A program made the translations under genes and the position numbers. A stretch of DNA of 64,000 nt from Nocardia fluminea (lineage in GTDB: Bacteria; Actinomycetota; Actinomycetes; Mycobacteriales; Mycobacteriaceae), in assembly GCF_002846365.1 (NCBI RefSeq), contig NZ_PJMW01000002.1, positions 4,092,001 through 4,156,000 of the forward strand, in the 5' to 3' direction. The notes beneath the pieces were generated by a model. It saw nothing but the letters and a program-made list of their open reading frames with translations, had not been told where the DNA came from and ran no database searches. Within the stretch, counting starts at the first letter, position 1; each line of letters opens with the position of its first letter. This document shows positions 12,859-42,055 of this stretch, in pieces.

Positions 12859-13232
12859 GCGCTCACTCTACGAGTCCCGCGCCGGTGCGCGAGCCGGGAG
12901 GTCTCGGCGAGTTTCCCGGCAGGTGACGATTCGTCGTCGGTTTCGGCTCGGCGCGGGTTTGATTGCGACTTTCGTCCATCGGTCCGCTATTGTCTGGCCG
13001 CCCAGATCGAATATTTACCGGTGAAACGGTGGTCGGTCGCGGGAACAACAAGGGCATGTCCTGCGTTTACCGAACGCTGTCGGAGTAGATCGCTGGCCGA
13101 TCGAACCTGATAGACGACCGGTGCACGTGTGAGGTGCACCACCGGCGGGGCGGTACGAACGCCGGAACCCTGCGGGGTTACGGCAATCGACTGATCCGGG
13201 ATATACGGAGTAAGGACTGAGGGGAAGACGAC
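12859..13232. other. Divergent promoter region cei / DUF4193
   Basis: No coding signal. Holds the cei promoter at its left end and, at 13120-13140, a GGTGCAC/GTGCACC inverted repeat with a 7-nt loop that could form a small hairpin in the DUF4193 leader. DUF4193 translation starts after GAGGGGAAGACG. Confidence 0.5.
12865..12870 (-). promoter_or_regulatory. -10 box TAGAGT, leaderless start of cei
   Basis: Ends 6 nt before GTG 12858; no Shine-Dalgarno. Confidence 0.5.
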
Positions 13233-13535
13233 ATGGCAACCGACTATGACGCACCGCGGCGCACCGAATCCGACGAGGTGTCGGAGGATTCGCTCGAGGA
13301 GCTGAAGGCCCGCCGCAACGAGGCGCAGTCCGCCGTCGTGGACATCGACGAATCCGATACAGCGGAATCGTTCGAGCTTCCCGGCGCGGACTTGTCCGAC
13401 GAGGTACTCAGCGTTCGGGTGGTCCCGAAGCAAGCGGACGAGTTCACCTGCTCGAGCTGTTTTCTCGTGCATCACCGCAGCCGACTGGCCTCCGAGAAGG
13501 GTGGACAGCTCATCTGCATGGATTGCGCGCTCTAG
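13233..13535 (+). CDS. DUF4193 family protein
   Basis: 100-residue acidic protein. The N-terminus MATDYDAPRR and the C-terminal zinc-ribbon-like pair FTCSSCFLVHHRSRL...ICMDCAL (Cx2C ... Cx2C) define the family. Located as in M. tuberculosis (Rv2699). Highly conserved in actinobacteria; function not established. ATG 13233 with GAGGGGAAG upstream. Confidence 0.92.
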   Translation: MATDYDAPRRTESDEVSEDSLEELKARRNEAQSAVVDIDESDTAESFELPGADLSDEVLSVRVVPKQADEFTCSSCFLVHHRSRLASEKGGQLICMDCAL

Positions 13536-13590
13536 CGGCAGGCGAGTGCGCGGCACCGTGCGGTCGATCGACCCGCATGGGCTGCGCAGA

Positions 13591-13608
13591 CTGATCCGCA
13601 GGGATCAG
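13591..13608. terminator. Possible terminator between convergent genes
   Basis: CTGATCC/GGATCAG stem with a GCAG loop between the DUF4193 and DUF3093 stop codons; no T tract. Confidence 0.3.
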
Positions 13609-13618
13609 CGAGGAAGGG

Positions 13619-14155
13619 TCAGCCCGCGCTCGGGAGTCCGAGCGCGGCCAAGACCCGGTCCGGCCTTCGCGTACTGACCAACCAGTACGGCGTCGGGTCG
13701 TCCGGGTCGTCCAGCACCAGCAATGCCATCGGGCCGATCCAGGCGTGGTGCTGCACATAGGCGGCGGGGTCGAGTTGTCGGCCCAGGGCCGCGCTCTTGG
13801 CCGTCGGCGCGACGGCCACGGCGCGCGCGACGAAGCTCACCGGCAGGTGGGCACGGTCGACGCGCAGTTCCGCCGTACCATCGTCGGCCACGGTGACATC
13901 CAGGCGATGCCTGCTCATCCACAACAGAATCCACACCGGGACCGGCGTCAGCAACAGGTACGGCAGCCACGCCCGCAATCCCGGCGCGCCCATGTGGATC
14001 TCGGCCGCGAGCAGGCCCGCGATCGTGAAGCCGACCGGCCACCACCACAGCGGCACCCACAGGCGCTCGGAGTAGGGCGACGGACCCGGCGCGCGTGGCG
14101 CGCGAGGGTCGGTGTCTGCGGTCTCGGTCGTGGGGGAATGGGGCTGGTCGGGCAC
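13619..14155 (-). CDS. DUF3093 family membrane protein
   Basis: 178 residues with two closely spaced transmembrane segments near residues 36-80 ([17 protein letters not shown], then [16 protein letters not shown]), followed by a soluble PH-like C-terminal part with [14 protein letters not shown]. Matches DUF3093 and the syntenic Rv2698. GTG 14155 lies 6 nt after a TAGTGT box, so it is predicted leaderless. Function unknown. Confidence 0.9.
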
Positions 14156-14161
14156 CCCTCA

Positions 14162-14167
14162 ACACTA
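14162..14167 (-). promoter_or_regulatory. -10 box TAGTGT, leaderless start of DUF3093 gene
   Basis: 6 nt from GTG 14155. Confidence 0.5.
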
Positions 14168-14213
14168 GGTCACCGTGCCAGGGCTGCGACGAGAAGGTCC
14201 GGCCTCGACCGCG

Positions 14214-14219
14214 TAGTCT
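14214..14219 (+). promoter_or_regulatory. -10 box TAGTCT, leaderless start of dut
   Basis: 8 nt from GTG 14228; back to back with the DUF3093 promoter 46 bp away. Confidence 0.5.
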
Positions 14220-14227
14220 CGACCGAT

Positions 14228-14698
14228 GTGAACGCACTTGCACCGATTCCGCTGCGGCGGCTCGATCCCGGCATCCCTGTGCCGACGCGTGCCCATCCGG
14301 GTGATGCGGGCGTCGACCTCTGTACCACCGAGGATGTGATCATCGAACCGGGCGAGCGGGTGCTGGTCGGTACCGGGATCGCGATCGCGCTGCCGATGGG
14401 CACGGTCGGCTTGATCCACCCCCGGTCCGGTTTGGCCGCGAAGGCCGGTCTGTCGGTGGTCAACACGCCCGGCACGGTCGACGCGGGCTACCGCGGTGAG
14501 ATCAAGGTGTGCCTGATCAACCACGACCCGCGCACCGCTATCGAGCTGCGTCGCGGCGACCGCGTCGCGCAGTTGCTGGTGCAGCGGGTCGAGTTGGTCG
14601 ACTTCGCCGAGGTCGACGATCTCGACGAGACCGCCCGTGGCACCGGCGGGTACGGGTCGAGCGGCGGGCATGCCGGCCTGGCCGACAAGGAGGCGTGA
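14228..14698 (+). CDS. dut: dUTP diphosphatase
   Basis: 156-residue trimeric dUTPase converting dUTP to dUMP and PPi. Conserved motifs in order: HPGDAGVDL (1), [12 protein letters not shown] (3), [16 protein letters not shown] (uracil-binding hairpin with catalytic Asp), [10 protein letters not shown] (4) and the C-terminal [11 protein letters not shown] glycine-rich lid that closes over the nucleotide. GTG 14228 chosen because the family begins there and a -10 box precedes it. Stop overlaps the next ATG (TGATG). Confidence 0.97.
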
Positions 14699-15597
14699 TG
14701 GGTCTGTTCGGAAAGAAGAAGCGCGCGCGTGACGACGACTACGTCGACTACGACGAAGTCGAGTACGACGAGGCGGACTACGACTTGGACGCGGACTCCG
14801 ACGAGTACGACACCGACGAGTTCCAGCGCCCCGACTTCGCCCGCCTCGACTTCGACGACGCGCCCACCGACGAGCGCATCTACGGCAATTTCGACCATGC
14901 CCCCGATGCCGCCGCGGGTCCTTACGACATCAGCGAGGTCTCCGACGAGGCCATCTCGCGTCGCCTCGACCTCGGCTCGGTGCTCATCCCGGTGCCCCAG
15001 GGCGGGCAGTTGCAGGTGGAGATGAGTCCCGACGGCACCCCGCAGGCGGTGCACCTGGCCACCGAGCACGGCAGGCTCACGGTCGCCGCCTACGCCGCGC
15101 CCAAGTCGGCGGGTCAGTGGCGCACGGTCGCCGCGGATCTGGCGGAGTCGCTGCGCGGTGACGGGGCGAGCGTGGCCGTCGAGAAGGGCCCGTGGGGCCG
15201 TGAGGTCAAGGCGATCACCGAGGGCGCCGACCTGCGCTTCATCGGTGTCGACGGTCCCCGCTGGATGATCCGGCTGGTCGCCGCGGGGCCCAAGGGCGCC
15301 GTCGACGATCGCAGCCCGCTGATCACCGCGGCCCGCGCGGTGCTGGCCGACGCGGTGGTCCGCCGCGGCACCGACCCGCTGCCCGTGCGCGACCCGCTGC
15401 CGGTGGTCCTGCCCCAGGAACTGGCCGAACAGCTGGCCGCTGCCCACCAGCAGCAGGTCCTGGCTCAGCAGGAAGCTCTCGAAGCCCAGGCCGCCGCCGC
15501 GGCCGCCCCGCCGCCCTCGGCCCTTCCGCCGAAACTGCCGGACGAGCCGCGCCGGGGCGCGGACGGTTCGGCGATGCAGCAACTGGGCCTGAACTAG
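14698..15597 (+). CDS. DUF3710 domain protein
   Basis: 299 residues. A short basic start [13 protein letters not shown] is followed by a strongly acidic Asp/Glu/Tyr-rich stretch (about 10-45), then the DUF3710 core (LDLGSVLIPVPQGGQLQVEM; WRTVAADLAESLRGDGA; VDGPRWMIRLV) and a Pro/Gln tail. Translationally coupled to dut. Conserved in actinobacteria (Rv2696c) with no assigned reaction. Confidence 0.92.
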   Translation: MGLFGKKKRARDDDYVDYDEVEYDEADYDLDADSDEYDTDEFQRPDFARLDFDDAPTDERIYGNFDHAPDAAAGPYDISEVSDEAISRRLDLGSVLIPVPQGGQLQVEMSPDGTPQAVHLATEHGRLTVAAYAAPKSAGQWRTVAADLAESLRGDGASVAVEKGPWGREVKAITEGADLRFIGVDGPRWMIRLVAAGPKGAVDDRSPLITAARAVLADAVVRRGTDPLPVRDPLPVVLPQELAEQLAAAHQQQVLAQQEALEAQAAAAAAPPPSALPPKLPDEPRRGADGSAMQQLGLN

Positions 15598-29797: not shown

Positions 29798-30562
29798 TCA
29801 GCGGTAGGCGGGTTCGTTGCCCTCGCGATAGATCGCGAGCGCCGATTTCATCAACCGCACCAACGACGCTCGCGCGTCACCCGCATCACCCGGGCGCGCC
29901 TCGATCATCGAGCCACGTTCGGTGACAAGGTAGCGCCCGTCCGGAAAATCCATCACATGGAAGCCCTGGCCGTGTTGCGGGCGGTTGTCGATCGCAGCTC
30001 CCGGGTAGCCCGCCACGTACACGAGGGTCGATCGCGTCCGCCCGAAGAACTCGTCCGCCTTCTGCTGCGGCGTGCGCCGGTCGGCCGCCCACGGGTCGTA
30101 GGGGGTTTCCTCGTCGAGGTCGTTGCTGTTCATCGAGAACACGTCCCCGTTTGCCGCCCCCGTCTTCGGCAGCCGGGCAAGGAGCTTGTCGGGCAGCTGT
30201 TCGATCTCGAGCAAGCTCATCCGGATGTCACCACCCTCGTGGTCCAGCGGCACGCGCTGCTGTTCCACCAGCACCGCCTGCTGTCCCCGCACCGCCGCGA
30301 ACGACCGCAATTTCTCCCCGTCACCGTATCCGGCGAACTCGAACCGCGCTTCCGGCTCGAGCAGAATCCGCACCGCCGCGTCCAAGGAGTGGTCGAACAT
30401 CGGCAGAATCCGCTGCGCCTCGTCCTGCCACAGCCGGTCGTACTCGTCGACGGTCACCGCGTTCGCCTGCGTTTGCAGGGGATACGGCAGCACATCGCGA
30501 TCCGCAGCCCGCCACAGGACGGTGAACCCGAGTGCACTGAACTGCCACTGCCCCTGGCTCAT
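29798..30562 (-). CDS. ESX secretion-associated protein, EspG family
   Basis: 254 residues. The opening WQFSALGFTVLWRAADRDVLPYPL is the EspG-type start, with a central antiparallel sheet region and a late GRYLVTERGSMIEARPGD. EspG proteins are cytosolic chaperones that bind PE/PPE pairs before ESX export. Its ATG overlaps the stop of the PPE-like gene upstream (ATGA), consistent with a substrate-chaperone pair. Confidence 0.8.
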   Translation of the reverse strand: MSQGQWQFSALGFTVLWRAADRDVLPYPLQTQANAVTVDEYDRLWQDEAQRILPMFDHSLDAAVRILLEPEARFEFAGYGDGEKLRSFAAVRGQQAVLVEQQRVPLDHEGGDIRMSLLEIEQLPDKLLARLPKTGAANGDVFSMNSNDLDEETPYDPWAADRRTPQQKADEFFGRTRSTLVYVAGYPGAAIDNRPQHGQGFHVMDFPDGRYLVTERGSMIEARPGDAGDARASLVRLMKSALAIYREGNEPAYR

Positions 30563-31859
30563 TCGCCGATCACCGGCGGCACCGTCTTGGCTCGCTGATC
30601 CTCGCTGAGGCCCGTGAGTTCTTCACCGTTCTCCTGGTTGATCAGATAGTCCTTCGTCCCGGCTTCCTTCTCGTCGTCGCCCTTCCCGCGACCGCCACCG
30701 GCACCCATACCGCCCATGCCCGACATCCCCCGGCCAGACCCGCCGGAACCCGCGCCCGCTGTACCGGCACCGCCTTTTCCGGCGGCCGTACCACCCGGCG
30801 TGCCCGGAACGGCCGCTCCTGGAACGCCGGAACCCGGTGTCCCGGAACCCGGCGAACCCCCGCCGGGAGAGCCACCGGTCCCCATCGGCGTCGTCGAGGC
30901 GGGTGTGGTGCCGGTCGGTGAAGTCGGCGTGGTCGGCACGGTGGATTGCGGTGTCGTCGTCGCGGGCCCTGTGCTCGACGGCGTGGTGTCGTCACCGTCG
31001 TCGGACGGGTCCTCCGTCGTCGGCGTCTCGGTGGTCGGTTGTTCGGTCGTCGGCTGTTCGGTGGTGGGTTGTTCGGTCGTGGGCTGCTGTGTTGTCGGCT
31101 CGGTGCCCGTGGTGCCGTCGTTGCTGCCCCTGTCGTCGCCCGGCTTCCCCCCGGTCTCGAGCGGGTTATAGGGCTGCGGCACAAGCGGAACGTCGGTATC
31201 GGCGATCTTGATGGCCTCGTAGTAGATCCCCTTGATCACCTCCGCGCCTTCGGATTTCGCGGTGTCGGCGTTGTGGCTGTACATCTTCCAGGTGGGTCCG
31301 GGGATGTAGCTCGCGATCCCGCTGAGCGTGGAGCCTTCGTGCGGCTGGACCCGATCCTTGGCGATCTGCATGGCCGACTCGACCACCTTCACCTTCTCGG
31401 CCATCATCTGCGCCGACGACAGCAGGTTCCCCGACTTCTCGACGTACTCCCTGATCCCAGCGCCCGCGCTGGCTCCCGCGTTGCCGGTCCACTTCTCGGC
31501 GATCGCTTTTCCGATCTCGGTGTCGTAGGTCTTGAAACCCTCTTCGAGCTTGTTGCGCAGGGTTTCCCAGCGGGTGTGCAACGTATTGACGTCGGTCATC
31601 GACATCGCGGAAACCCGCTCGTACAAGTCCGACATCTGACTCGGCTCGTCGTACGAGACGACCTGCGGCTTCTGATAGGCACCGTCGAAATCGCTCTGCA
31701 ACTCCGCCAACCGATTCCGTGCGATATGCGCGTCCGGGCTCTCGTCTGTCGAGCGGTCGGCTTGCTACCGTCCGCGTAGTCCTTCAACGTGAGGTAGGTA
31801 TTACCGCCGGGAACGGCATTGACGACTGCCCTGCCGACCACATTGTCCAGGAATGACAC
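30559..31859 (-). pseudogene. PPE/WXG-like ESX substrate with a frameshift
   Basis: Two overlapping frames make one protein. The first starts at GTG 31859 (MSFLDNVVGRAVVNAVPGG) and leaves frame near 31758; the second runs to 30559 and its first start-like codon is TTG 31710. Adding one base in the CCGACC run at 31756-31761 joins them as GSKPDRSTDESPDAH. The product, about 430 residues, has a helical WXG/PPE-like head (YERVSAM; LHTRWETLRNKLEEG; EKWTGNAG), then a Thr/Pro/Gln linker of PTTEQ repeats and a Gly/Ser/Pro-rich tail. Either a broken gene, a recoded one or a sequencing error. Confidence 0.7.
31016..31102 (-). repeat. PTTEQ-coding 15-bp tandem repeats
   Basis: Five to six imperfect 15-bp units encoding PTTEQ/PTTET in the linker of the PPE-like protein. 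Confidence 0.75.
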
Positions 31860-32277: not shown

Positions 32278-32829
32278 TCATTTAGGAAAGAGAGGAACAA
32301 TCGCTGCTGCGATCGGCTGTAGCCGTTCGCACGGCGGTACCGCCTTCTCTTTCACGCCGGTGGTAAGTAGATCGAGTTGTGCGAGACCCGTGGCCGTCGA
32401 GAAGGCGATCGAGCAGTCTTCATTCGCCTTGTAGTGGCTCTGCCGGAACTGCACACCGCTGCGGCCGGCGATCACGACGTCCTTGAACTCGATGTTCGTC
32501 GGCTTGGCGCGCACTTCATCGAGTGTGTGGATCGTGGAGTACGCACCGATCCCGAACCCGGATGGATAGTTCGCGTCATCCCACCGACAGATCTTCCAGC
32601 CAGGTTCTTCAGCGCCGAGGATGCCGGATCGCTTCGATTTCACATCCAGCCCCAAGCTGGTCAAAGTCGAGTCAGGGATCTGACTGCACGGATCCCATAA
32701 GGCTGCTGTAGCCGCGGCCTGGTCGGTGGTCGCACTCGGCTGCGCGTTCCCACTCTCGGTAGAGGAACAACCCGCGATAGCAAGCGCTCCACACAACAAC
32801 GTGGTCACCGCCATAAACCGTCGCCGCAC
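32278..32829 (-). CDS. DUF3558-type lipoprotein
   Basis: 183 residues. Signal peptide with basic RRR, hydrophobic VTTLLCGALAIA and lipobox IAGC at about residue 21, so a membrane-anchored exported lipoprotein. The mature part carries WDPCSQIPDSTLTSLGLD and CRWDD, typical DUF3558, with paired cysteines. DUF3558 lipoproteins often accompany ESX or cell-wall loci in Nocardia. GTG 32829 chosen because GGAGG sits 6 nt upstream; ATGs at 32814 and 32835 are alternatives. Confidence 0.78.
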   Translation of the reverse strand: MRRRFMAVTTLLCGALAIAGCSSTESGNAQPSATTDQAAATAALWDPCSQIPDSTLTSLGLDVKSKRSGILGAEEPGWKICRWDDANYPSGFGIGAYSTIHTLDEVRAKPTNIEFKDVVIAGRSGVQFRQSHYKANEDCSIAFSTATGLAQLDLLTTGVKEKAVPPCERLQPIAAAIVPLFPK

Positions 32830-33372
32830 GAGCATCCTCCGTCTTCCCCGATCACCGAGCCACACCGTCCGGCCGAGCCCGCTCCAACCCCACGGCTACC
32901 CGAATGCTCCCCGCACCCGGCCACCCCGTCGTTGCGCACAGCCTACGACACCACCCCGCCCAATTCACCTCACCGCCCCCGTCCGGTGAAACGTTGCTAA
33001 CCCCACCGAGTTCCGCCGTGTCGAAGTTCTGCCGACCATCGCGATCCATCCCAGGCGACGCCGGACGCTAGCGAGTCGAATGGTCGAGCACCCACGTTCA
33101 CCTCCTTGCGCCTCACGCCCAGCCAGCCACGAGATGGCACTCCTTCGCACCGTTAGACGCACCGAAGCCCCTTCCGGTTCCATCGATTTCACCGCACGGA
33201 CCGACCCCGTCGTATCCGCTACGCTCAGCGATTGGCACTGCGTGCCGCAGGTCTGACGCACCGCTCCTTCCAGCGGTGACGACCTGTTCGATCAGGTTCG
33301 ACACCGCAGGTCACGGGCCAGGGAGTGCCCGCTGACCCGGGGTGGCATCACACGAGGGGCGGGGCAGCGAAG
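32830..33372. other. Divergent intergenic region, no gene supported
   Basis: About 540 bp between the leftward lipoprotein operon and the rightward EspC-RHS operon. No open frame has a ribosome site with coding character. Contains the promoters for both arms and, at 33284-33302, a direct repeat TTCGA-TCAGG-TTCGA within CCTG...CAGG. Confidence 0.5.
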
Positions 33373-33699
33373 ATGACAAGCGCAGGTGGGGAACTCAGTA
33401 TCTCCCCGGACAAGATCAAAACCCACGCCACCAATGTCACCTCCGCCGGTTCCGGGCTGACCGAAGCACTCGAAGCAGCCCAAGCGGTCTCGGCCCCCTC
33501 GGACGCTTTCGGAAAACTGTGTGCCTTCCTCGGCCCGTTGTTCGTCGACTCGGTCGAAACCGATGGCATCGACGCGATCCAGGCCGCGATCGACGCCTTC
33601 GGGAACACCAGCTCGAACCTGACCGCTGTCGCCGACGCGTTCACCACCCGCGACACCACCAACGCTACTGCGCTCAAGACTCAAGAGTCCGGCGTGTAA
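33373..33699 (+). CDS. EspC-like ESX secreted protein
   Basis: 108 residues. Matches the T7SS EspC-type family: LSISPDKIKTHATNV start, helical hairpin with SGLTEALEAAQAV, FGKLCAFLGPLF, then a second helix ending NLTAVADAFTTRDTTNA. Proteins of this kind are secreted through ESX systems and often pair with a larger partner. Its TAA overlaps the ATG of the RHS gene (TAATG), so the two are made together and probably pair. ATG 33373 follows GGGGCAGCGAAG. Confidence 0.82.
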   Translation: MTSAGGELSISPDKIKTHATNVTSAGSGLTEALEAAQAVSAPSDAFGKLCAFLGPLFVDSVETDGIDAIQAAIDAFGNTSSNLTAVADAFTTRDTTNATALKTQESGV

Positions 33700-36600
33700 T
33701 GGCCGCCAACCCCCTCATCGCTGCGAAGGAAGACACCACCGACTGGTCCACCGGGATCAGCCTGGTCAGCTCGGTCACCGACCTGTCCGACGCGATCTCG
33801 GGCGGTTCCTGGATCGAAGTAGGCCTGGGTGTTGTCGGTCTCGGCGCCGAAGCAGTCTCCCTCGTGGTGGACCCGCTCGGGACCTTGGCCGGTTACGGCG
33901 TGGGCTGGCTGATCGAGCACTGTCAGCCTTTGCAGGATGCTTTGGACTGGATTGCGGGTGATCCTGCCCAGATCGAGGCTTATGCCAAAACTTGGGACAA
34001 TGTTGCCGCTCGGATCAGCGAGGTAGCGACGGCCCAGAACGCCGCGGTCACCGCTGATGTCGCGGATTGGACCGGTCTAACCGCCACCGCCTACAAATCC
34101 GCGGCGTCGAACACTACGAATCTGCTCACCGCGGCCAACACCGCCGCGACCGCCGCTGCTTCGGCGATCCGGATGGCGGGTGGGATCGTGGCCGCGGTCC
34201 GCGAGACCGTGCGTGACTTGGTAGCCCAGACTGTCGGTCGTCTCGCGGTGTGGGCGGCTGAGTTGGTGTTCTCGGTCGGTTTGGCGACCCCGCTGGTCGC
34301 GGTCCAAGCCACCGCTTACATCGCGAAAACCGTTGCGACGATTTCGAAGTTGTTCTCGAAGCTGGCCAAGACGATGTCGAAGCTGAAGCCGTTGCTCGAG
34401 CAGTTGAAGTCGGCGTTCGGTGATATCGCGAAGGCGTTCAAGAAGACCCCGTCGAAGACCTCGAAGAACACCGACACCACTACCACGAGCCCCGCGGCCG
34501 CGAAGAACACCGACACGACAACACCGTCGACCACGAAACAGACAGATACACTATCGAATCCGGCCAGTACACCCGACTCCCCATCCAAAACCACTGACAC
34601 GTCGGATACCCCGGGCAATACGAAACCCGCGAACACTCCGAGCGATACCAGCAAGCTGCCCGATCAGACCGATTCGCAGAAACCGGACCTCAACAAAACC
34701 GCGAAACAAACCACCGACTGTGGTGACCCGGTCGACGTCGCGACCGGCGAATTCCTGCTCCCTGCAACCGATATCGACCTCCCGGGTGTACTGGCTTTGG
34801 TTCTGACCCGCCGACACCGATCGTCGTACCGGTTCGGCCGGTGGTTCGGGCCTTCTTGGGCCGCGACACTGGACATGCGCGTCGAAGTCGACCAGGTCGG
34901 AGTCCAGTTCGTCGGACCAGACGGGGAGCTGTGGCAATTTCCCCACACCGCCCCCGACGTTCCCGTTCATCCTGTCCACAAGGGCATCCGCGCAACCATG
35001 ATCCGCACCGAGTCCGGCGGGTACTCGGTCCACGACCCAGAACGCGAACTCACCTGGATATTCCGACCCACCGGGCCGGAAACGTCACTCGGCAACTATC
35101 CGATCACCGAGATCACCGACCGCCACCACAACCGAATCACCTTCCACTACAACAGCACCGGTCAGCCCACCGAAGTCACCCACTCCAGCGGATACCGTGT
35201 CCGCATCGACACCGACGGTGACCGCGTCACCAGTCTGAGTGTGCTCGGCACCACCCCCACCGGCGAACCCCTCACAGCCGCTGTCCGCGAATTCAGCTAC
35301 ACAGCAGGTGATCTCACCGCGGTCACCAATGGTGTCGGTGCGACCACGAACTTTCGCTACGATGAACAACACCGCATGCTGTCCTGGCACGATTCCCGCG
35401 GCACCGCGATGCGCAACACTTATGATAAATCCGGGCGGGTCATCGAACAGGTCGGCACCGACGGCATCCTGTCGGCCACCTTCATCTATGAACAGCTTCC
35501 CGAATTCGGGCGCTCACGCACCCATCACACCAACTCTCTCGGTGCCACACAGGTTTTCGAGTTCGACGAAGACCTCTGCCTGCGCAACCTGATCGATCCG
35601 CGCGGTGCGGCATCGATCACCGACTACAACGAGTACCGCCAGCCGGTCCGCCACGTCGACGCCTACGCGAACACCACCGTCTTCCTCTACAACCCCGACG
35701 GTGACCTGGTCCTGGTTCGACGCCCCGACCAGCAAACCATCACCATCACCTACGCCGCGCCGCGGCGTCCGGCCACGATCACCGATGTCGACGGCACCAT
35801 CCTTACCCGTACTTACGACGAGACCGGCAATCTCATCACCATCACCGACGCCGATGGCATCTCGACCGCTTACACCCATCATCCGTGTGGTGCCCCAGCG
35901 TCGATCACGCTCTCGACCGGTGCCACCACCGTTATCGATGTCGATGCCGGTGGGCTGCCGACGCGGATCGTGGAACCCGGCAACGCCGTCACCACTATCT
36001 CGCGGGATGCGTTCGGCCGCCCGGTCACGATCACCGATCCCCTCGGCAACACCAGTACCAGCCAGTATTCGGTCGAGGGAAAGCTGCTTTCACGTATCGA
36101 TGCTGATGGCACTGTCCAGTCATGGACCTATGACGGTGAAGCGAACCTGCTCACCTACACCAACCAAATCGGTGCCATTACCCGCTACACATACGGCAAC
36201 TTCGACTTGGTCGCCACCCGCGAAACCGCCGATGGTTCCGTTACTTCCTATACCCACAACACCGAACGTCGGCTCACCTCCGTCACCAACCCTCTCGGTG
36301 ACACCTGGACGTACGAATATGACCCAGCTGGAAACGTCTGCACCGAAACCGACTACAACGGGTCGGTTATCCGCACCGACTACGACCTCCTCGATCGGCC
36401 TACCACCATCACCACACCCACCGGTGTCCAGCGCCGCCTCACCTTCGACATCCTGGGCCGGTTCACCGGTGTCAGCACTGACACCGGTGAATGGATCACC
36501 AATACCTACACGCCGACCGGGCAACTCGCTACAGCACGAAACGGGATCCACACCGAGGTGACCCATTCGGTCACCTTCGCCCATACTCCAGCGGGCCGAG

Positions 36601-38171
36601 TGCTGACCCAGCACGTCGACGGACGCCCCGTCACCTACCACTACGACGAACACGGCCGTCGCATCGGATACTCGACGCCCAGCGGAGCAACGACCGAATA
36701 TGAACGTACCGCGACCGGGCAAATCTCCGCCCTGACCACGCACGGTCATCGATTCGACTTCACCCACGACCAAGTCGGTCGCCAAAATAGTTGGCACAGT
36801 ACCGGTATCGGACAACACAACACCTACAGTCCCACCGGCAACCCCCTGCAACGTGAACTCGTCCAACTCGACCCCCACACCAGCACCCCCATCCGGCTTC
36901 TCGAACGCGACGAATATGCCTGGCGCCCCGATGGTTACATCACCAGCCACACCACCACAACGCCCACCACCAGTCGTCGCCGCGACTACACCGTCGACGT
37001 CATCGGCCGCATCACCCACATCGGCTCCCCGGCCGACGGTGTCACCGAGCAGTACAGCTACGACGCCCTGTCGAACCTCACTACAGCCGAGATTCCACCA
37101 TCGCCGTCACCCGCTGATCCTGCTCCCCCCGTCAGCAACCCATCCGCACTCCCGACAGATCCGCGGTTCGAATACCGCAACAACCTCCTTGTCCGAGCCG
37201 GCCGCATCCGCTACCACTACGACATCGCCGGCCGCCTCATCCGCAAAGAAAAGACCCGGATCTCCCGCAAACCCGCGATCTGGCACTACCGCTACAACGC
37301 CTTCGACCAACTCGCCGAAGTCACCAACCCCGATAAGAACACGTGGACCTACACCTACGACCCCTTCGGCCGCCGAACCACCAAACTTCACCAATCAAGC
37401 GAAACCCGCACCGAATTTTCCTGGGACGGGGTCCACCTCACCGAGCAAACCACGACCACCGCCGGCTCGGGCATCCAAACCCACACCTGGGCCAACCACC
37501 CCACCACTCACATCCCTCTCACTCAGTCGGTGGACGACCAATTCTGGGCAATCGTCACCAACCTCCAGGGTGCCCCCACTCATCTCACCAACCCCGAAAC
37601 AGGCGAAATCGCCTCAACCGCCACTGCAGACCTCTGGGGACGAACCACCTGGACAGGCCCCGAAACGCCGCACCGCTTCCAGGGTCAACAACACGACCCA
37701 GAATCCGGCCTCCACTACAACTACCACCGCTACTACGACCCCGAAACCGGCCGCTACCTCACCCAAGACCCACTCGGCCTGAAGCCCTCTCCCAATTCGA
37801 CGACCTACCCTCACAATCCGCTGGTCTGGTCCGATCCGCTCGGTCTGACACCGTGCGGTTTGTCACGCGAAGCACCGCGCCTTGAAGACGGAAATAGCAG
37901 GACTGGATGGAGGCATATTGAACAACGTCACATTCCTGGAGGATCGAACAATCAAGGATCGCTGTTTGCGGTTGGTACGACACGCGAGCAAATTGAAACA
38001 GCGGCGCGCGAAATTGTGGAGCGGGGTACTCGCCAGTCCGATCCTAGCAAGGATTATCAAGTATTCGAGCGTAGGATGACGATCAACGGGTTGCGTTCAA
38101 ATTATCGACTTGTGGTAGATTCTACAGATGGCAACAACATTGTGACGATGTTTCCGATACTTGGAAGGTGA
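33699..38171 (+). CDS. RHS-repeat polymorphic toxin with WXG-like N-terminus
   Basis: 1490 residues. 1-248: helical head with WTG at 124-126, like the WXG turn of ESX substrates, and hydrophobic helices near 180-245. 249-338: Thr/Lys/Pro linker. 339-415: DUF6531-type start (CGDPVDVATGEFLLPATDID). 420-1383: YD/RHS repeats forming the shell, ending with the conserved RYYDPETGRYLTQDPLGL and a second SDPLGL. 1384-1490: variable tip with GWRHIEQRHIPGG, ERRMTINGLRSNYRLVVD and NNIVTMFPI, resembling BECR-fold ribonuclease toxins. Base composition drops at the tip, as expected for an exchangeable toxin end. Confidence 0.88.
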   Translation: MAANPLIAAKEDTTDWSTGISLVSSVTDLSDAISGGSWIEVGLGVVGLGAEAVSLVVDPLGTLAGYGVGWLIEHCQPLQDALDWIAGDPAQIEAYAKTWDNVAARISEVATAQNAAVTADVADWTGLTATAYKSAASNTTNLLTAANTAATAAASAIRMAGGIVAAVRETVRDLVAQTVGRLAVWAAELVFSVGLATPLVAVQATAYIAKTVATISKLFSKLAKTMSKLKPLLEQLKSAFGDIAKAFKKTPSKTSKNTDTTTTSPAAAKNTDTTTPSTTKQTDTLSNPASTPDSPSKTTDTSDTPGNTKPANTPSDTSKLPDQTDSQKPDLNKTAKQTTDCGDPVDVATGEFLLPATDIDLPGVLALVLTRRHRSSYRFGRWFGPSWAATLDMRVEVDQVGVQFVGPDGELWQFPHTAPDVPVHPVHKGIRATMIRTESGGYSVHDPERELTWIFRPTGPETSLGNYPITEITDRHHNRITFHYNSTGQPTEVTHSSGYRVRIDTDGDRVTSLSVLGTTPTGEPLTAAVREFSYTAGDLTAVTNGVGATTNFRYDEQHRMLSWHDSRGTAMRNTYDKSGRVIEQVGTDGILSATFIYEQLPEFGRSRTHHTNSLGATQVFEFDEDLCLRNLIDPRGAASITDYNEYRQPVRHVDAYANTTVFLYNPDGDLVLVRRPDQQTITITYAAPRRPATITDVDGTILTRTYDETGNLITITDADGISTAYTHHPCGAPASITLSTGATTVIDVDAGGLPTRIVEPGNAVTTISRDAFGRPVTITDPLGNTSTSQYSVEGKLLSRIDADGTVQSWTYDGEANLLTYTNQIGAITRYTYGNFDLVATRETADGSVTSYTHNTERRLTSVTNPLGDTWTYEYDPAGNVCTETDYNGSVIRTDYDLLDRPTTITTPTGVQRRLTFDILGRFTGVSTDTGEWITNTYTPTGQLATARNGIHTEVTHSVTFAHTPAGRVLTQHVDGRPVTYHYDEHGRRIGYSTPSGATTEYERTATGQISALTTHGHRFDFTHDQVGRQNSWHSTGIGQHNTYSPTGNPLQRELVQLDPHTSTPIRLLERDEYAWRPDGYITSHTTTTPTTSRRRDYTVDVIGRITHIGSPADGVTEQYSYDALSNLTTAEIPPSPSPADPAPPVSNPSALPTDPRFEYRNNLLVRAGRIRYHYDIAGRLIRKEKTRISRKPAIWHYRYNAFDQLAEVTNPDKNTWTYTYDPFGRRTTKLHQSSETRTEFSWDGVHLTEQTTTTAGSGIQTHTWANHPTTHIPLTQSVDDQFWAIVTNLQGAPTHLTNPETGEIASTATADLWGRTTWTGPETPHRFQGQQHDPESGLHYNYHRYYDPETGRYLTQDPLGLKPSPNSTTYPHNPLVWSDPLGLTPCGLSREAPRLEDGNSRTGWRHIEQRHIPGGSNNQGSLFAVGTTREQIETAAREIVERGTRQSDPSKDYQVFERRMTINGLRSNYRLVVDSTDGNNIVTMFPILGR
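37848..38171 (+). other. C-terminal toxin tip of the RHS protein
   Basis: About 107 codons after the last DPLGL motif. Candidate catalytic residues are the two histidines and Arg of HIEQRHIPG and the late Arg/Tyr strand (SNYRLVVD); the final strand IVTMFP matches the closing strand of BECR tRNases. More A/T-rich than the shell. Confidence 0.6.
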
Positions 38172-38173
38172 AA

Positions 38174-38656
38174 ATGGTCGAGTTCATTTTCACGGTTCGT
38201 GATGGAACTCCGGAGGATGGGTATTCACTGGGTGATCTCGAAATCGTGGGTAACTCAGCGTCGGTTACCACGCGCGGTCTCGAACACCCTGATCAAGGTA
38301 TGATGGTGTATCCCTCCGCTGTGGATCTTCTCTTCGAGGCTCGCTTACTGGCCGGTCGCGGAAAAGGCAACGGGAGGTTCGAAGGTCTTGGCTCCATGTT
38401 TGTTGTCGAGTTTTCGCTACAAAAGGATCGCGTAACTACCCGACACGGCAAGTTGTTGATTGATTCCACGCCGTTGTCGCAGTTTCTTTGCGCTGTCTAC
38501 GATAGTGCAAAAGCTCTGTTCGACCATGGCGTCGGCGCCGTTGCGGAGAATCGCAAGGTGCTGAATGTTTTGGAGAAGGAAATAGCCTCGTTCGAAATGT
38601 GGCGCACATCCCTTGATGTCGAACATATGAAATCAAAAAATAGACGGAACCGTTGA
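38174..38656 (+). CDS. Probable immunity protein to the RHS toxin
   Basis: 160 residues, no family recognised. Alternating strands (VEFIFTVRDGTPEDGYSLG; FVVEFSLQKDRVTTR) then helices and a basic end. ATG 38174 lies 5 nt after GGAAGG and 2 bp past the toxin stop; GTG 38168, overlapping that stop, is the alternative. Position immediately after the tip, small size and distinctly lower GC are the usual marks of a cognate immunity gene. Function is inferred from context only. Confidence 0.7.
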   Translation: MVEFIFTVRDGTPEDGYSLGDLEIVGNSASVTTRGLEHPDQGMMVYPSAVDLLFEARLLAGRGKGNGRFEGLGSMFVVEFSLQKDRVTTRHGKLLIDSTPLSQFLCAVYDSAKALFDHGVGAVAENRKVLNVLEKEIASFEMWRTSLDVEHMKSKNRRNR

Positions 38657-38857
38657 GTTAGAGATTGGGCGGTTGTTGAAATAGATTTCAATATCATCAG
38701 GTGTGCTTCGGGCGTATGCCGAATCTGTGTCGGCTGCAGCCCGTTTCATGTCGGCGGAGTGCTTTGGCCGCGAGATGGACGATGTCGTGTGGCCATCCCG
38801 AACAGCAAGCAGTGCGGCGGTGTTGTCCGCCGGCCGACAAACGTGATTGGTACCGGA

Positions 38858-40108
38858 TCAGTCGGAGGTGGGGGTCAGGGCGCTCGTCAGGGCCGGAACC
38901 GCGAGGGTTCGCTGCCATTGCCGTGCGCCGCCGGCGAGGAGGAAGGCCTCGATCCTCGCGGACAACTCTTCGGGGGTGCCGACGTTGTTGTAGTCGGGGA
39001 GTCCGTCCCAGCAGAGACGACGGACCAGGTCGGGGGAGAGGAGGTTCTCTACCGGGATCGAGTGTTCGGTGGAGAGTTCGCCCATGGCGCCGCGGGCGGT
39101 GGTGAGGCGGGCGGCGGCGATGGGGTCGCGGCGTTCCCAGCGGTTGACCGGGGGTGGGCCGTCGAAGGGGAGGGTCAGTGGGGGGAGTTGTTTGTCGGGG
39201 AGGGTGCGGCCTCGTTCGACGGCGGCCAGCCAGTCGCGGGAGTAGCGGCGTTGGCGGGGGCCGCCGAAGACGGGGAGGGTGCGCAGTTGGGCGATCGAGC
39301 GGGGTTCGCTGGTGGCGGCGGTGACGATGGCCGCGTCGGGCAGGATGCGGGAGGGGGCGACGTCGCGGGCGCGGGCGAGTTCGTCGCGGGTGGTCCACAG
39401 TTCGCGCACGATCGCCAGTTGGCGGGTGCGGCGCAGGGTGTGGATGCCGGAGGTGCGGCGCCAGCGGTCGGCTTTCGGGGTGGGCGGTTCCATGGTGCGG
39501 ACGTGCTCGAATTCCTCTGCGGCCCAGTCGAGTTTGCCCTGGGCGGTGAGGTCGGCGGCGACGGTGTCGCGGAGTTCGAGGAGCAGTTCGACGTCGAGGG
39601 CGGCGTAGTTGAGCCACTCGTCGGGCAGCGGGCGGCTCGACCAGTCGGCGGCACCGTGGCCTTTGCGCAGGGATCGGCCGAGGAGGTTTTCGACCATCGC
39701 GGCCAAGCCGACGCGTTCGTAGCCGGCGATGCGTCCGCCGAGTTCGGTGTCGAAGAGGCGGGCGGGGCGCAAACCCAGTTCGGCGAGGCCGGGCAGGTCC
39801 TGGTCGGCGGAGTGCAGGACCCATTCGAGGTCGTTGATCGCCTCGGCGAGCGGGGTCAGCGCGTCGGTGACGGGAATCGGGTCGATGAGGAACGAGCCGG
39901 CGCCCTCACGGCGGAGCTGGATCAGGTACGCCCGTGCCGAATAGCGGAAACCGGACGCGCGTTCGGCGTCGACAGCCAGGGGGCCGGTGCCCCCGGCGAG
40001 GGTTTTGGCGGCCGCGGCGACCTCTTCGGCGGTCGCCAGCACAGGTGGAACCCCTTCGGCAGGGGCGAGCAGGGGCTCTGCTGCGGTGGGTTCCTCGGCG
40101 ACCGACAT
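38858..40108 (-). CDS. Ribonuclease D (HRDC domain)
   Basis: 416 residues. DEDD 3'-5' exonuclease core: LAVDAERASGFRYS, LVHSAD-type WVLHSADQDLPGL, LFDTELGGRIAG, and LNYAALDVELLLEL (YxxxD). The HRDC domain follows (TRDELARARDVAPSRILPDAAI), with a helical C-terminus. Processes structured RNA 3' ends. Predicted leaderless from ATG 40108. Syntenic with Rv2681, which in M. tuberculosis neighbours dxs directly. Confidence 0.93.
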   Translation of the reverse strand: MSVAEEPTAAEPLLAPAEGVPPVLATAEEVAAAAKTLAGGTGPLAVDAERASGFRYSARAYLIQLRREGAGSFLIDPIPVTDALTPLAEAINDLEWVLHSADQDLPGLAELGLRPARLFDTELGGRIAGYERVGLAAMVENLLGRSLRKGHGAADWSSRPLPDEWLNYAALDVELLLELRDTVAADLTAQGKLDWAAEEFEHVRTMEPPTPKADRWRRTSGIHTLRRTRQLAIVRELWTTRDELARARDVAPSRILPDAAIVTAATSEPRSIAQLRTLPVFGGPRQRRYSRDWLAAVERGRTLPDKQLPPLTLPFDGPPPVNRWERRDPIAAARLTTARGAMGELSTEHSIPVENLLSPDLVRRLCWDGLPDYNNVGTPEELSARIEAFLLAGGARQWQRTLAVPALTSALTPTSD

Positions 40109-40116
40109 AAACGTGA

Positions 40117-40122
40117 ACTCTA
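40117..40122 (-). promoter_or_regulatory. -10 box TAGAGT, leaderless start of RNase D gene
   Basis: 8 nt from ATG 40108. Confidence 0.45.
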
Positions 40123-40130
40123 CGTGGCGA

Positions 40131-40769
40131 TCAAGGGCGATCGGTGCGGGTATAGGACTCCGGTCGTAAATGGGTTACCCCGGCGGGTGGTAACCCGGCG
40201 GCGAAGGCCAGCACCTCGCAGAACGCTTCGACGTGTCGTCGCATCTCGGTGGTCGTGGCCGTCCACGAGGCGCGGAGTTCGAGCTGGTGCGCGCGGGGTG
40301 GGCCCGCGATATCGCCGTAGCGGACCGAACTGGTCGCGGTGACCGTGCCGCCGAGGGCGGTGAACGGTTCGCCGCGCGATTCGAGGGAGTCGACGAGCCA
40401 GCTCCACGCCACCTCGGGTAAGAGGGGGTCGGCGGCCAGGGCGGCGTCGATGTCGGCCTGGATGTAGGCGACGAGCCGGAACACCCCGTTCCAGGTCTCG
40501 TCGCCGTCGGGGTCGTGTAGCAGGATCAGCCTGCCGAACGCGTCGCCCTCGGAGTCGGTGGGCACCGAGGGGGTGTCGGGGTGGACGACCTCCGCTCCGA
40601 GCGCATAGGAGAACGGCGCCAACCGTTGCGGGGGACGGATAGGCGCCAGCTCGATTCGGGGGTGCACTGTTGCGGTGCCCATCGCATCGACCGCCGCCCG
40701 AAAAGAAGCAGGCTCGCGGGGCGTTCCCCCGGTCGGTGCGGCGCCGTCGCGGATGTCGAGCGGTGTCAC
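40131..40769 (-). CDS. DUF3000 family protein
   Basis: 212 residues. DUF3000 features: FRAAVDAMGTATVHPRIELAPIRPPQ, LAPFSYALGAEV, GRLILLHDPDGDETWNGVFR and ASWTATTTEMRRHVEAF. Conserved actinobacterial protein of unknown role, next to RNase D as in Rv2680. GTG 40769 lies 8 nt after TACCGT, suggesting a leaderless start and ruling against more upstream ATGs. Confidence 0.9.
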   Translation of the reverse strand: MTPLDIRDGAAPTGGTPREPASFRAAVDAMGTATVHPRIELAPIRPPQRLAPFSYALGAEVVHPDTPSVPTDSEGDAFGRLILLHDPDGDETWNGVFRLVAYIQADIDAALAADPLLPEVAWSWLVDSLESRGEPFTALGGTVTATSSVRYGDIAGPPRAHQLELRASWTATTTEMRRHVEAFCEVLAFAAGLPPAGVTHLRPESYTRTDRP

Positions 40770-40777
40770 GAGGAGGA

Positions 40778-40783
40778 ACGGTA
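40778..40783 (-). promoter_or_regulatory. -10 box TACCGT, leaderless start of DUF3000 gene
   Basis: 8 nt from GTG 40769. Confidence 0.45.
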
Positions 40784-40985
40784 GACCGTGGGTGCCCGGC
40801 GCCGTCGGAGGCGCGCCGCCGTGCGCGTTGCGTGCGGGCCGCGTTGCGTAGCGTGCATTCTCGGCGCCGGTCCGATGCACGATGTGCGACGAGAACGGGG
40901 TCTGCGGGCCACCGCTGCTCGGCCGTCGGAACGTGTGGCCGGTCCCACACTCGCGTGGGCGTGAGGTTCCCGCGGGCTCGGCGCT

Positions 40986-40991
40986 TAGGAT
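40986..40991 (+). promoter_or_regulatory. -10 box TAGGAT, leaderless start of hemE
   Basis: 8 nt from ATG 41000; no ribosome site. Confidence 0.5.
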
Positions 40992-40999
40992 GAACGGCG

Positions 41000-42055
41000 A
41001 TGAGCACTTACACCCGCCGCCGGTTGACCGATGCCCCTTTCCTGGCCGCCGCCTCCGGCGCGACGCCCAGCAGGCGCCCGGTGTGGTTCATGCGTCAAGC
41101 CGGCCGGTCGCTGCCGGAATACCGCGAACTGCGCAAGGGTATCGGCATGCTCGAGTCGTGCTTCGACCCGGAACTGGTGTGTGAGATCACCATGCAGCCG
41201 ATCCGCCGCCACGGCGTCGACGCGGCAATCCTGTTCTCCGACATCGTCGTTCCGCTCAAGGCCGCGGGCATCGACCTCGACATCGTGCCCGGTGTCGGCC
41301 CGGTCATCGCCTCACCGGTGCGCACCGAGGCCGACGTGCGCGCGCTGCCGCGGCTGCGTCCCGAAGAGGTCGGCGCGGTCACCGAGGGCGTGCGACTGCT
41401 CACCGGTGCGCTCGGCGACACCCCGCTCATCGGCTTCGCGGGCGCCCCGTTCACCCTCGCCTCCTACCTGGTGGAAGGGGGGCCGAGCAAGCAGCACGAG
41501 CGCACCAAGGCGATGATGCACGCCGACCCGAAGACCTGGCATGCCCTGCTGGGCGCCCTCACCGACATCACCATCGCCTTCCTGCAGGCCCAGTTGACGG
41601 CTGGTGTCGACGCGGTGCAGCTGTTCGACTCCTGGGCGGGCGCGCTCTCGCTGGCCGACTACCGCGAGTACGTGCTGCCCCATTCGGAGCGGGTGTTCGC
41701 CGAGGTCGCCTCGGCGGGGGTGCCGCGCATTCACTTCGGTGTCGGCACGGGTGAACTGCTCGGTGCCATGGGTGAGGCCGGTGCCGATGTGGTCGGTGTG
41801 GACTGGCGGGTGCCGCTCACCGACGCGGTGCGTCGGGTCGGTGCCGGAAAAGGCTTGCAGGGCAACCTGGATCCCGCGATCCTGTTCGCCGGATTCGACG
41901 CGGTCGAGGCCGAGACCCGGCGGATCGTGCGGGAAGCGGACGAGGCGATCACGCTCGGCGCCAGCGGGCACATCTTCAACCTCGGCCACGGCGTACTGCC
42001 CGATACCGATCCCGGCGTGCTGACCGCGCTGGTCGAGTTGGTGCACTCGCTGTAA
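41000..42055 (+). CDS. hemE: Uroporphyrinogen decarboxylase
   Basis: 351 residues. Removes four carboxyl groups from uroporphyrinogen III to give coproporphyrinogen III. Seen: [16 protein letters not shown] (substrate arginines), [11 protein letters not shown] with the catalytic Asp, [26 protein letters not shown] and [12 protein letters not shown]. First gene of the hemE-hemG-hemQ cluster of the coproporphyrin-dependent heme route. Confidence 0.97.

Follow-up and report, generated by a model that had tools for sequence, protein, structure and literature searches.

A three-gene RHS locus in Nocardia fluminea

The 64,000-nucleotide stretch of the Nocardia fluminea genome analyzed here (hereafter the window; contig NZ_PJMW01000002.1, positions 4,092,001 to 4,156,000) contains three consecutive plus-strand genes, which encode an EspC-family protein, a 1,490-residue rearrangement hotspot (RHS) protein, and a small protein that is likely an antidote (Table 1). 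An earlier note on this DNA had described an RHS toxin linked to an ESX (type VII) secretion pathway, with a coupled EspC-like partner and an immunity gene. The open reading frames (ORFs) and the PF10824 score agree with its account of the first two genes, which overlap by one base within TAATG at 33697-33701. The RHS protein displays the features by which RHS toxins are recognized: DUF6531 at residues 342-414, 13 RHS-repeat stretches (Pfam), the Rhs-associated core (NCBIfam), and a predicted C-terminal self-cleavage motif that aligns with solved RHS proteins. One of the latter, 8qjc, matches residues 337-1389 with an E-value of 1.3e-79.

The earlier note gave this protein a helical head of 248 residues with a W-T-G turn; WTG is found at residues 124-126, and the extent of the head is corrected to approximately 1-250, followed by a linker to ≈341. 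A PAAR/type VI secretion or Tc-type head was considered and rejected, as none is listed for the RHS protein by Pfam or NCBIfam, and no PAAR or Tc head appears in the Pfam matches of the scanned window and relative proteins. By eye, the N-termini inspected show no Sec signal, a judgment made with no signal-peptide predictor run. The small gene that follows directly is indeed of different composition (G+C content of 0.513 vs 0.676 for the window); the shell of the RHS protein has 0.620 and its C-terminal tip 0.503. This third ORF could also start further upstream, at the GTG at 38168, and its product matches no Pfam or NCBIfam family. A phmmer search of the PDB with the third protein and the tip returned nothing.

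Table 1. Features of the RHS locus and its neighborhood in the window.
Feature	Position	Strand	Basis or remark
EspC-family partner gene	33373..33699	+	108 residues; PF10824 29.4 bits vs cut-off 23.5
FTTRD, the partner's [YF]xxx[DE] motif	33640..33654	+	Phe instead of canonical Tyr
RHS protein gene	33699..38171	+	1,490 residues; Pfam and NCBIfam matches
WxG head, residues 1-250	33699..34448	+	predicted helical; upstream EspC in 70/80 related loci
WTG turn, residues 124-126	34068..34076	+	WxG in 79/79 aligned heads
T/S/P-rich linker, to residue ~341	34449..34721	+	translation
DUF6531 and RHS shell, residues 342-1383	34722..37847	+	Pfam/NCBIfam; solved RHS 8qjc
DPLGL...NPxxW.DPLGL end motif, predicted self-cleavage region	37767..37847	+	alignment with solved RHS proteins
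Variable tip, residues 1384-1490, predicted BECR-fold RNase	37848..38168	+	divergence among relatives; models and matches
Predicted immunity gene, 160 residues	38174..38656	+	relative after interrupted tip fragment (G071); tip/downstream co-travel in relatives
DUF3558 gene, divergent neighbor	32278..32865	-	PF12079 94.7 bits; same neighbor in L016, L017, L020
Small gene of EspG cluster, 139 residues	31862..32281	-	no Pfam family; kept within cluster
PPE-like gene	30559..31710	-	PPE 18.6 bits, below cut-off 26
EspG-family gene	29798..30562	-	PF14011 88.4 bits vs cut-off 27

The partner and head carry a putative type VII signal

Relatives of the head were collected by a protein search, in which scoring was limited to the 7,984 candidates with the most words in common and which gave 60 proteins including the window's own, and by a contig scan with ten heads, which gave 99 relatives; the best 80 of these 99 are the 80 loci referred to below. 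Eighteen belong to Nocardia and 62 to other genera (Amycolatopsis, Saccharopolyspora, Saccharothrix, Lentzea, Actinoplanes, Glycomyces, and more), most of which lack mycolic acids. A relative of the window's shell is present in 42 of the 80 loci, and a close head (E ≤1e-60) in 20 of 148 genomes from the genus. Heads of this kind, with an EspC partner, also stand on other bodies (L070, L084, L089, and L048-L065), namely short proteins in some genera, that of L070 bearing a CdiA_C tip; in Saccharopolyspora, the same head kind is found on long proteins that do not match the window's RHS shell. The head matches none of 50,697 phage records (prophages were not searched for) and one of 72,556 plasmid records, on a Tsukamurella plasmid (NZ_LR134447.1, 223072-223653; 35% identity).

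The coupling of an EspC-like gene to the head recurs among these relatives. An EspC-like ORF precedes the head in 70 of the 80 loci, overlapping it in 59 (by four bases in 44, one base in 13, and eight bases in 2) and separated from it by 11-256 bases in the other 11. An EspC profile was made from the window's ORF and 42 of the upstream ORFs; at a threshold of E 1e-3 it matched, among the 8,111 ORFs of at least 60 residues in the 80 loci, just one ORF besides those preceding a head and the natural EspC-head fusion of L069, so the position of EspC beside the head is not due to chance. Across 71 EspC-like proteins, the window's and those of the 70 loci, the alignment column of the window's FTTRD reads [YF]xxx[DE] in 61, whereas the next best column reaches 3; its first place is Tyr in 51 and Phe in 10, and its last place is Asp or Glu in all 71. 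On the side of the head, WxG is kept in 79 of 79 sequences (78 loci and the window, excluding the truncated L092 and L094), and the patterns used to find the loci did not include W124 and G126. A WxG protein accompanied by a partner with [YF]xxx[DE] is a mark of substrates of the ESX-type secretion systems (T7SSa), and this is the arrangement found here. Judged from these sequences, the WxG of the head and the [YF]xxx[DE] of the partner are read as the two halves of a type VII signal.

Distances among the EspC-like proteins and among their heads agree closely (r 0.904 for 69 pairs; within-genus shuffles have a mean of 0.74 and a maximum of 0.82, and 0 of 2,000 reach 0.904), an agreement much of which linkage alone could produce. 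When the PDB was searched with a profile of the head, designed coiled coils ranked at the top, followed by weak matches to ESAT-6-like proteins and EsxA (E 0.018-0.3). Membership of the head in the EspA_EspE family (PF18879) was rejected because the head stays below the cut-off, the family being absent from the matches of the window's head at E 0.1; it is retained only in the sense that the head may work like these proteins. Eight of ten heads of set A1 match PF18879 weakly (best E 4.3e-4), and other relatives score 14.9-19.0 bits against a cut-off of 27.

In Nocardia puris (L069:9533-10729), EspC and head form a single frame that continues to a tip-like end without an RHS shell, and this ORF could be either a small toxin or what remains after a deletion. 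EspB is the best likeness of a modest model of the fusion, and a Foldseek search with the model gave no match under E 1. The alignment behind the model consisted of 22 nested pieces of one ORF, included to bring both blocks into register, with 28 of 66 EspC and 23 of 74 head references, a real depth of 51 other rows.

The C-terminal tip is exchanged between relatives

Of 59 relatives, 53 had sufficient length and retained the end motif, so that their tips could be compared; the other six were dropped. Conservation falls at DPLGL, residue 1383, and the variability of the tip is confirmed: the 21 relatives whose heads show an identity of 85% or more have unrelated tips, with identities of 5-24%. 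The 54 tips, the window's included, form 29 clusters. Shells move too, as in P0010, P0014, P0015, and P0016, where heads are 95-98% identical and shells 44-50%. A constant body with exchangeable C-terminal tips is a mark of polymorphic toxin systems, and the search for the same head with different tips, suggested earlier, finds it in many Nocardia and other actinomycetes. The exchange can be seen at a single chromosomal site in N. caishijiensis (L016), where the site matches that of the window on both sides (pieces between window 24837 and 37777, and 38870-42054). Between them, window 37778-38869, which holds the tip and the third gene, has no blastn match to L016 longer than 150 bases at E 1e-20; a different tip and a different downstream gene are found there instead.

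In models, the tip looks like a BECR-fold RNase, with likeness in fold and motif to the CdiA-CT, BrnT, and Ntox41 RNases. Foldseek matches to the tip are led by NTF2-like designs, with 7m5f_C, from a contact-dependent inhibition (CDI) complex, at rank 12 and none under E 0.001. No Pfam family exceeds its cut-off on the tip, and EndoU (PF14436) was tried and rejected at 16.2 bits against 25.3. The same tip family occurs on other type VII heads (the PF21725 heads of Streptomyces), and other tips on the same head have HNH/EndoVII-fold and ADP-ribosyltransferase names or CdiA_C. The window tip itself is present in 2 of 150 genomes of the genus, its own included. It could be argued that tip and downstream gene are no toxin and antidote at all, and that the tip serves as an adhesin that varies or as a surface domain without toxicity, as the lack of a Pfam family over cut-off for either would allow; the RNase likeness of this tip and the toxin domains or names of several others on the same head make such a role very improbable.

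In relatives, the downstream gene travels with the tip

The relation of tip and downstream gene was assessed in 37 loci (uncut, longer than 1,200 residues, and with a recognizable tip) and the window. A plus-strand ORF lies ≤400 bases downstream in 37 of these 38. Where two tips are related, the downstream proteins are related in 18 of 27 pairs and unrelated in 9, compared with 0 of 676 among the other pairs, and none of 2,000 shuffles reaches 18. At the family level, the downstream gene is thus specific to the tip, which, together with the exchangeable tips, bears out the polymorphic-toxin layout proposed earlier.

For the window's own tip and third gene, the evidence is thin: neither has a relative in the 80 loci. 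The third protein (P0003) is found in 4 of the 150 genomes, again counting its own, and a protein search returned six relatives, all from Nocardia. In one genome (G071), a relative (47%) lies seven bases after a piece of a tip (70%, covering residues 47-102 of 103) that is interrupted by a stop. In another (G006), the right flank is the same as in the window, and the third gene has a copy there, 75% identical, with no RHS in the 16 kb taken. We consider the protein encoded at 38174-38656 a likely antidote to the tip. Two further arrangements were observed: in G006, the RHS-less immunity-like gene at the same chromosomal site (L112, 7385-8663) is followed by what appears by eye to be a VapBC-like pair, and in G104 (L113:4033-6597), a protein weakly related to the third one (32%) has as its neighbors an EspC-like gene and an EspA-like tetratricopeptide repeat protein (PF23275).

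Mycobacterial ESX substrates act on hosts, an RNase tip could act on any cell, and the genus has opportunistic pathogens, all of which would suit a toxin that is exported by ESX and aimed at eukaryotic predators or hosts. Because a tip-specific downstream gene, tip exchange, and the toxin-less immunity-like copy in G006 are consistent with competition among bacteria that have the toxin's target in common, we think a eukaryotic target improbable.

Relation of the locus to ESX machinery

The description of the locus as ESX-linked is supported, with a limit. It holds because of the head and partner type and the adjoining EspG/PPE-like cluster, and not because of ESX core genes, which are elsewhere in the genome. 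EspG is a chaperone of the PE/PPE substrates of ESX systems (PMC6107294). Among the 18 Nocardia loci, at least 7 have an EspG relative within 10 kb, at least 6 have the remaining three cluster genes as well, and the cluster is positioned as in the window in at least 3 (L016, L017, and L020); these counts are lower bounds because some contigs are short. The PPE-like gene of the window (30559-31859, minus strand) is apparently frame-broken between 31710 and 31859, its open piece starting with TTG at 31710. Longer open copies exist in L016 and L020, and the break in the window is either a sequencing error or a real loss.

Two EccC genes over cut-off lie near 729 and 761 kb of the contig (C2) on which the window occupies 4.09-4.16 Mb, and a third EccC-like gene, on C3, scores 500.7 bits, just under the cut-off of 509.15; the ESX machinery is therefore in the genome but not at the locus. 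The same C3, a contig of 313 kb, also carries a 398-residue ORF in two neighboring copies that start alike and look by eye like a transposase (L110, G000, 12942-15511). Across the class, the head has a match at E 0.001 in 22 of 296 genomes, 13 of them under 1e-30. EccC exceeds its cut-off in all 13 strong-head genomes (E 7.6e-202 or lower) and in 115 of the 296 overall. The corresponding hypergeometric value of 3e-6 ignores kinship and is not a clean probability, since EccC prevalence is confounded by it.

In 51 of the 80 loci, EspC is preceded by a YbaB-like gene; none was found in the 18 Nocardia loci. The window's genome has two more YbaB-EspC-head sets (L105:3031-5121 and L106:3554-5400), both without RHS; their head proteins have 326 and 303 residues, respectively, and the preceding YbaB genes are over cut-off. 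The YbaB-like proteins EspD and EspH have been proposed as chaperones of EspA/EspC and EspE/EspF (PMC6107294). The set described here would function in a similar way.

Several observations weigh against export by ESX. A clean partner is missing in 10 of the 80 loci: EspC and head share one ORF in L069, a remnant tail of an EspC-like frame precedes the head in L034 and L080 (by eye), and no EspC-like frame was seen by eye within 700 bases in L022, L023, L037, L043, L052, L060, and L061. The motif of the window's partner starts with Phe rather than Tyr. The head (residues 1-250) matches WXG100, WXG100_2, and T7SS_signal below cut-off only (PF06013 21.5, PF25547 20.5, and PF21725 21.3 bits vs 27.3, 27, and 27), although its relatives L049 and L056 exceed the PF25547 cut-off. 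The ESX core genes are unlinked to the locus, and the type VII channel is regarded as too narrow for an RHS cage in its folded state (PMC10327511). By eye, the head also has hydrophobic stretches. These points would suit an RHS toxin with an immunity gene whose head is not an ESX signal, EspC and head forming a membrane anchor or plug and the toxin leaving by lysis, vesicles, or a membrane-anchored route. Such an exit is nevertheless unlikely in our estimation, given that both halves of the type VII signal are retained over several families, that EccC occurs in all 13 genomes with strong heads, and that the same tip rides on other type VII heads.

A proposed mechanism

We consider it probable that the EspC-family partner and the RHS protein leave the cell as a pair through one of the genome's ESX systems, that the tip is an RNase that would harm rival bacteria, and that the third protein is the antidote. 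The gene overlap suggests that coupled translation would let EspC and the head pair at once. The pair would then form a PE/PPE-like four-helix bundle, a fold modeled on the natural fusion, which presents the observed WxG and [YF]xxx[DE] motifs as a composite export signal that EccC may recognize. By comparison with solved RHS proteins, the RHS part would fold as a cage around the tip and cut itself at DPLGL, after which the tip would enter a target cell and cut RNA. Exchange at the DPLGL boundary replaces the tip and its downstream gene jointly, as comparison of relatives shows.

Comparison with known systems

The link between RHS proteins and type VII secretion is itself already published (PMC3482391, PMC10327511, PMC11217815): type VII toxins with RHS were listed in 2012 for firmicutes and actinobacteria (PMC3482391), and RHS is stated to be genetically linked to T7SSa (PMC11217815). 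NCBI also names Streptomyces RHS proteins "putative T7SS-secreted." These precedents limit the earlier view that RHS toxins on an ESX pathway are little described in mycolic-acid actinomycetes. No RHS toxin with an EspC partner was found in the literature on Rhs, type VII, EspC, and YbaB, a coverage with subscription journals mostly outside it. Neither a partner of the EspC family, nor a set of YbaB, EspC, and head, nor an RHS body on such a set was found described there.

The closest plan is that of the PEST cassettes of Mycobacterium abscessus prophages, which likewise comprise a small helical partner, a type VII-headed polymorphic toxin, and an immunity protein; their head has been modeled as a PE/PPE-like dimer with the partner, and toxicity and protection were demonstrated for two cassettes (PMC10654092). 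The PEST partner, however, is a WXG100 protein rather than an EspC-family one (the window's partner scores 13.3 bits for WXG100 against a cut-off of 27.3), the text of that paper does not contain the word Rhs, and the cassettes are prophage-borne, whereas the head described here matched no phage record. Listeria LrhA/LxpABC/LrhI, a T7SSb case made by sequence and model, shares DUF6531 and RHS, a helical head, small helical partners, and an immunity gene (PMC10327511). Unlike the Nocardia locus, it belongs to a Bacillota T7SSb beside essC and has three partners and an immunity protein with a membrane segment.

In the EspA/EspC and EspE/EspF pairs, too, a WxG protein is accompanied by an EspC-type protein bearing a YxxxD/E-type motif, and the YbaB-like EspD, EspH, and EspL have their parallel in the YbaB-like genes of 51 of 80 relatives and of the two toxin-less pairs in this genome (PMC6319747, PMC6107294). 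Here, in contrast to the EspA/EspE sets, the WxG protein extends into an RHS cage and tip, and PF18879 is not reached. The Streptomyces proteins share the RHS shell, a type VII head, and the very same tip family, but their heads belong to another family (PF21725). Finally, AaEAS of Amycolatopsis azurea is an actinomycete type VII toxin with an upstream targeting factor and a downstream predicted immunity gene, as here; it differs in its LXG head and alarmone synthetase tip, and the available description gives it no RHS body (PMC12691689).

Implications for ESX biology

EspA/EspC-type ESX substrates are known mainly from pathogens, and their role is hard to test for that reason. In many non-mycobacterial genera, the EspC/WxG pair stands at the front of a protein whose predicted activity could be assayed, which would offer a direct readout of ESX export. 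The locus also raises the question of how a 1,490-residue cage protein would pass through a channel estimated at ≈30 Å (quoted in PMC10327511). As a more speculative and rather doubtful extension, the YbaB-like protein, EspC, and WxG head may be a widespread actinomycete module that delivers RHS and other toxins against rival bacteria, of which the host-directed mycobacterial EspD/H-EspC/F-EspA/E sets would be toxin-less descendants. If the RHS protein is indeed exported by ESX, type VII antibacterial warfare would extend over a large group of actinomycetes, as 62 of the 80 loci lie outside Nocardia.
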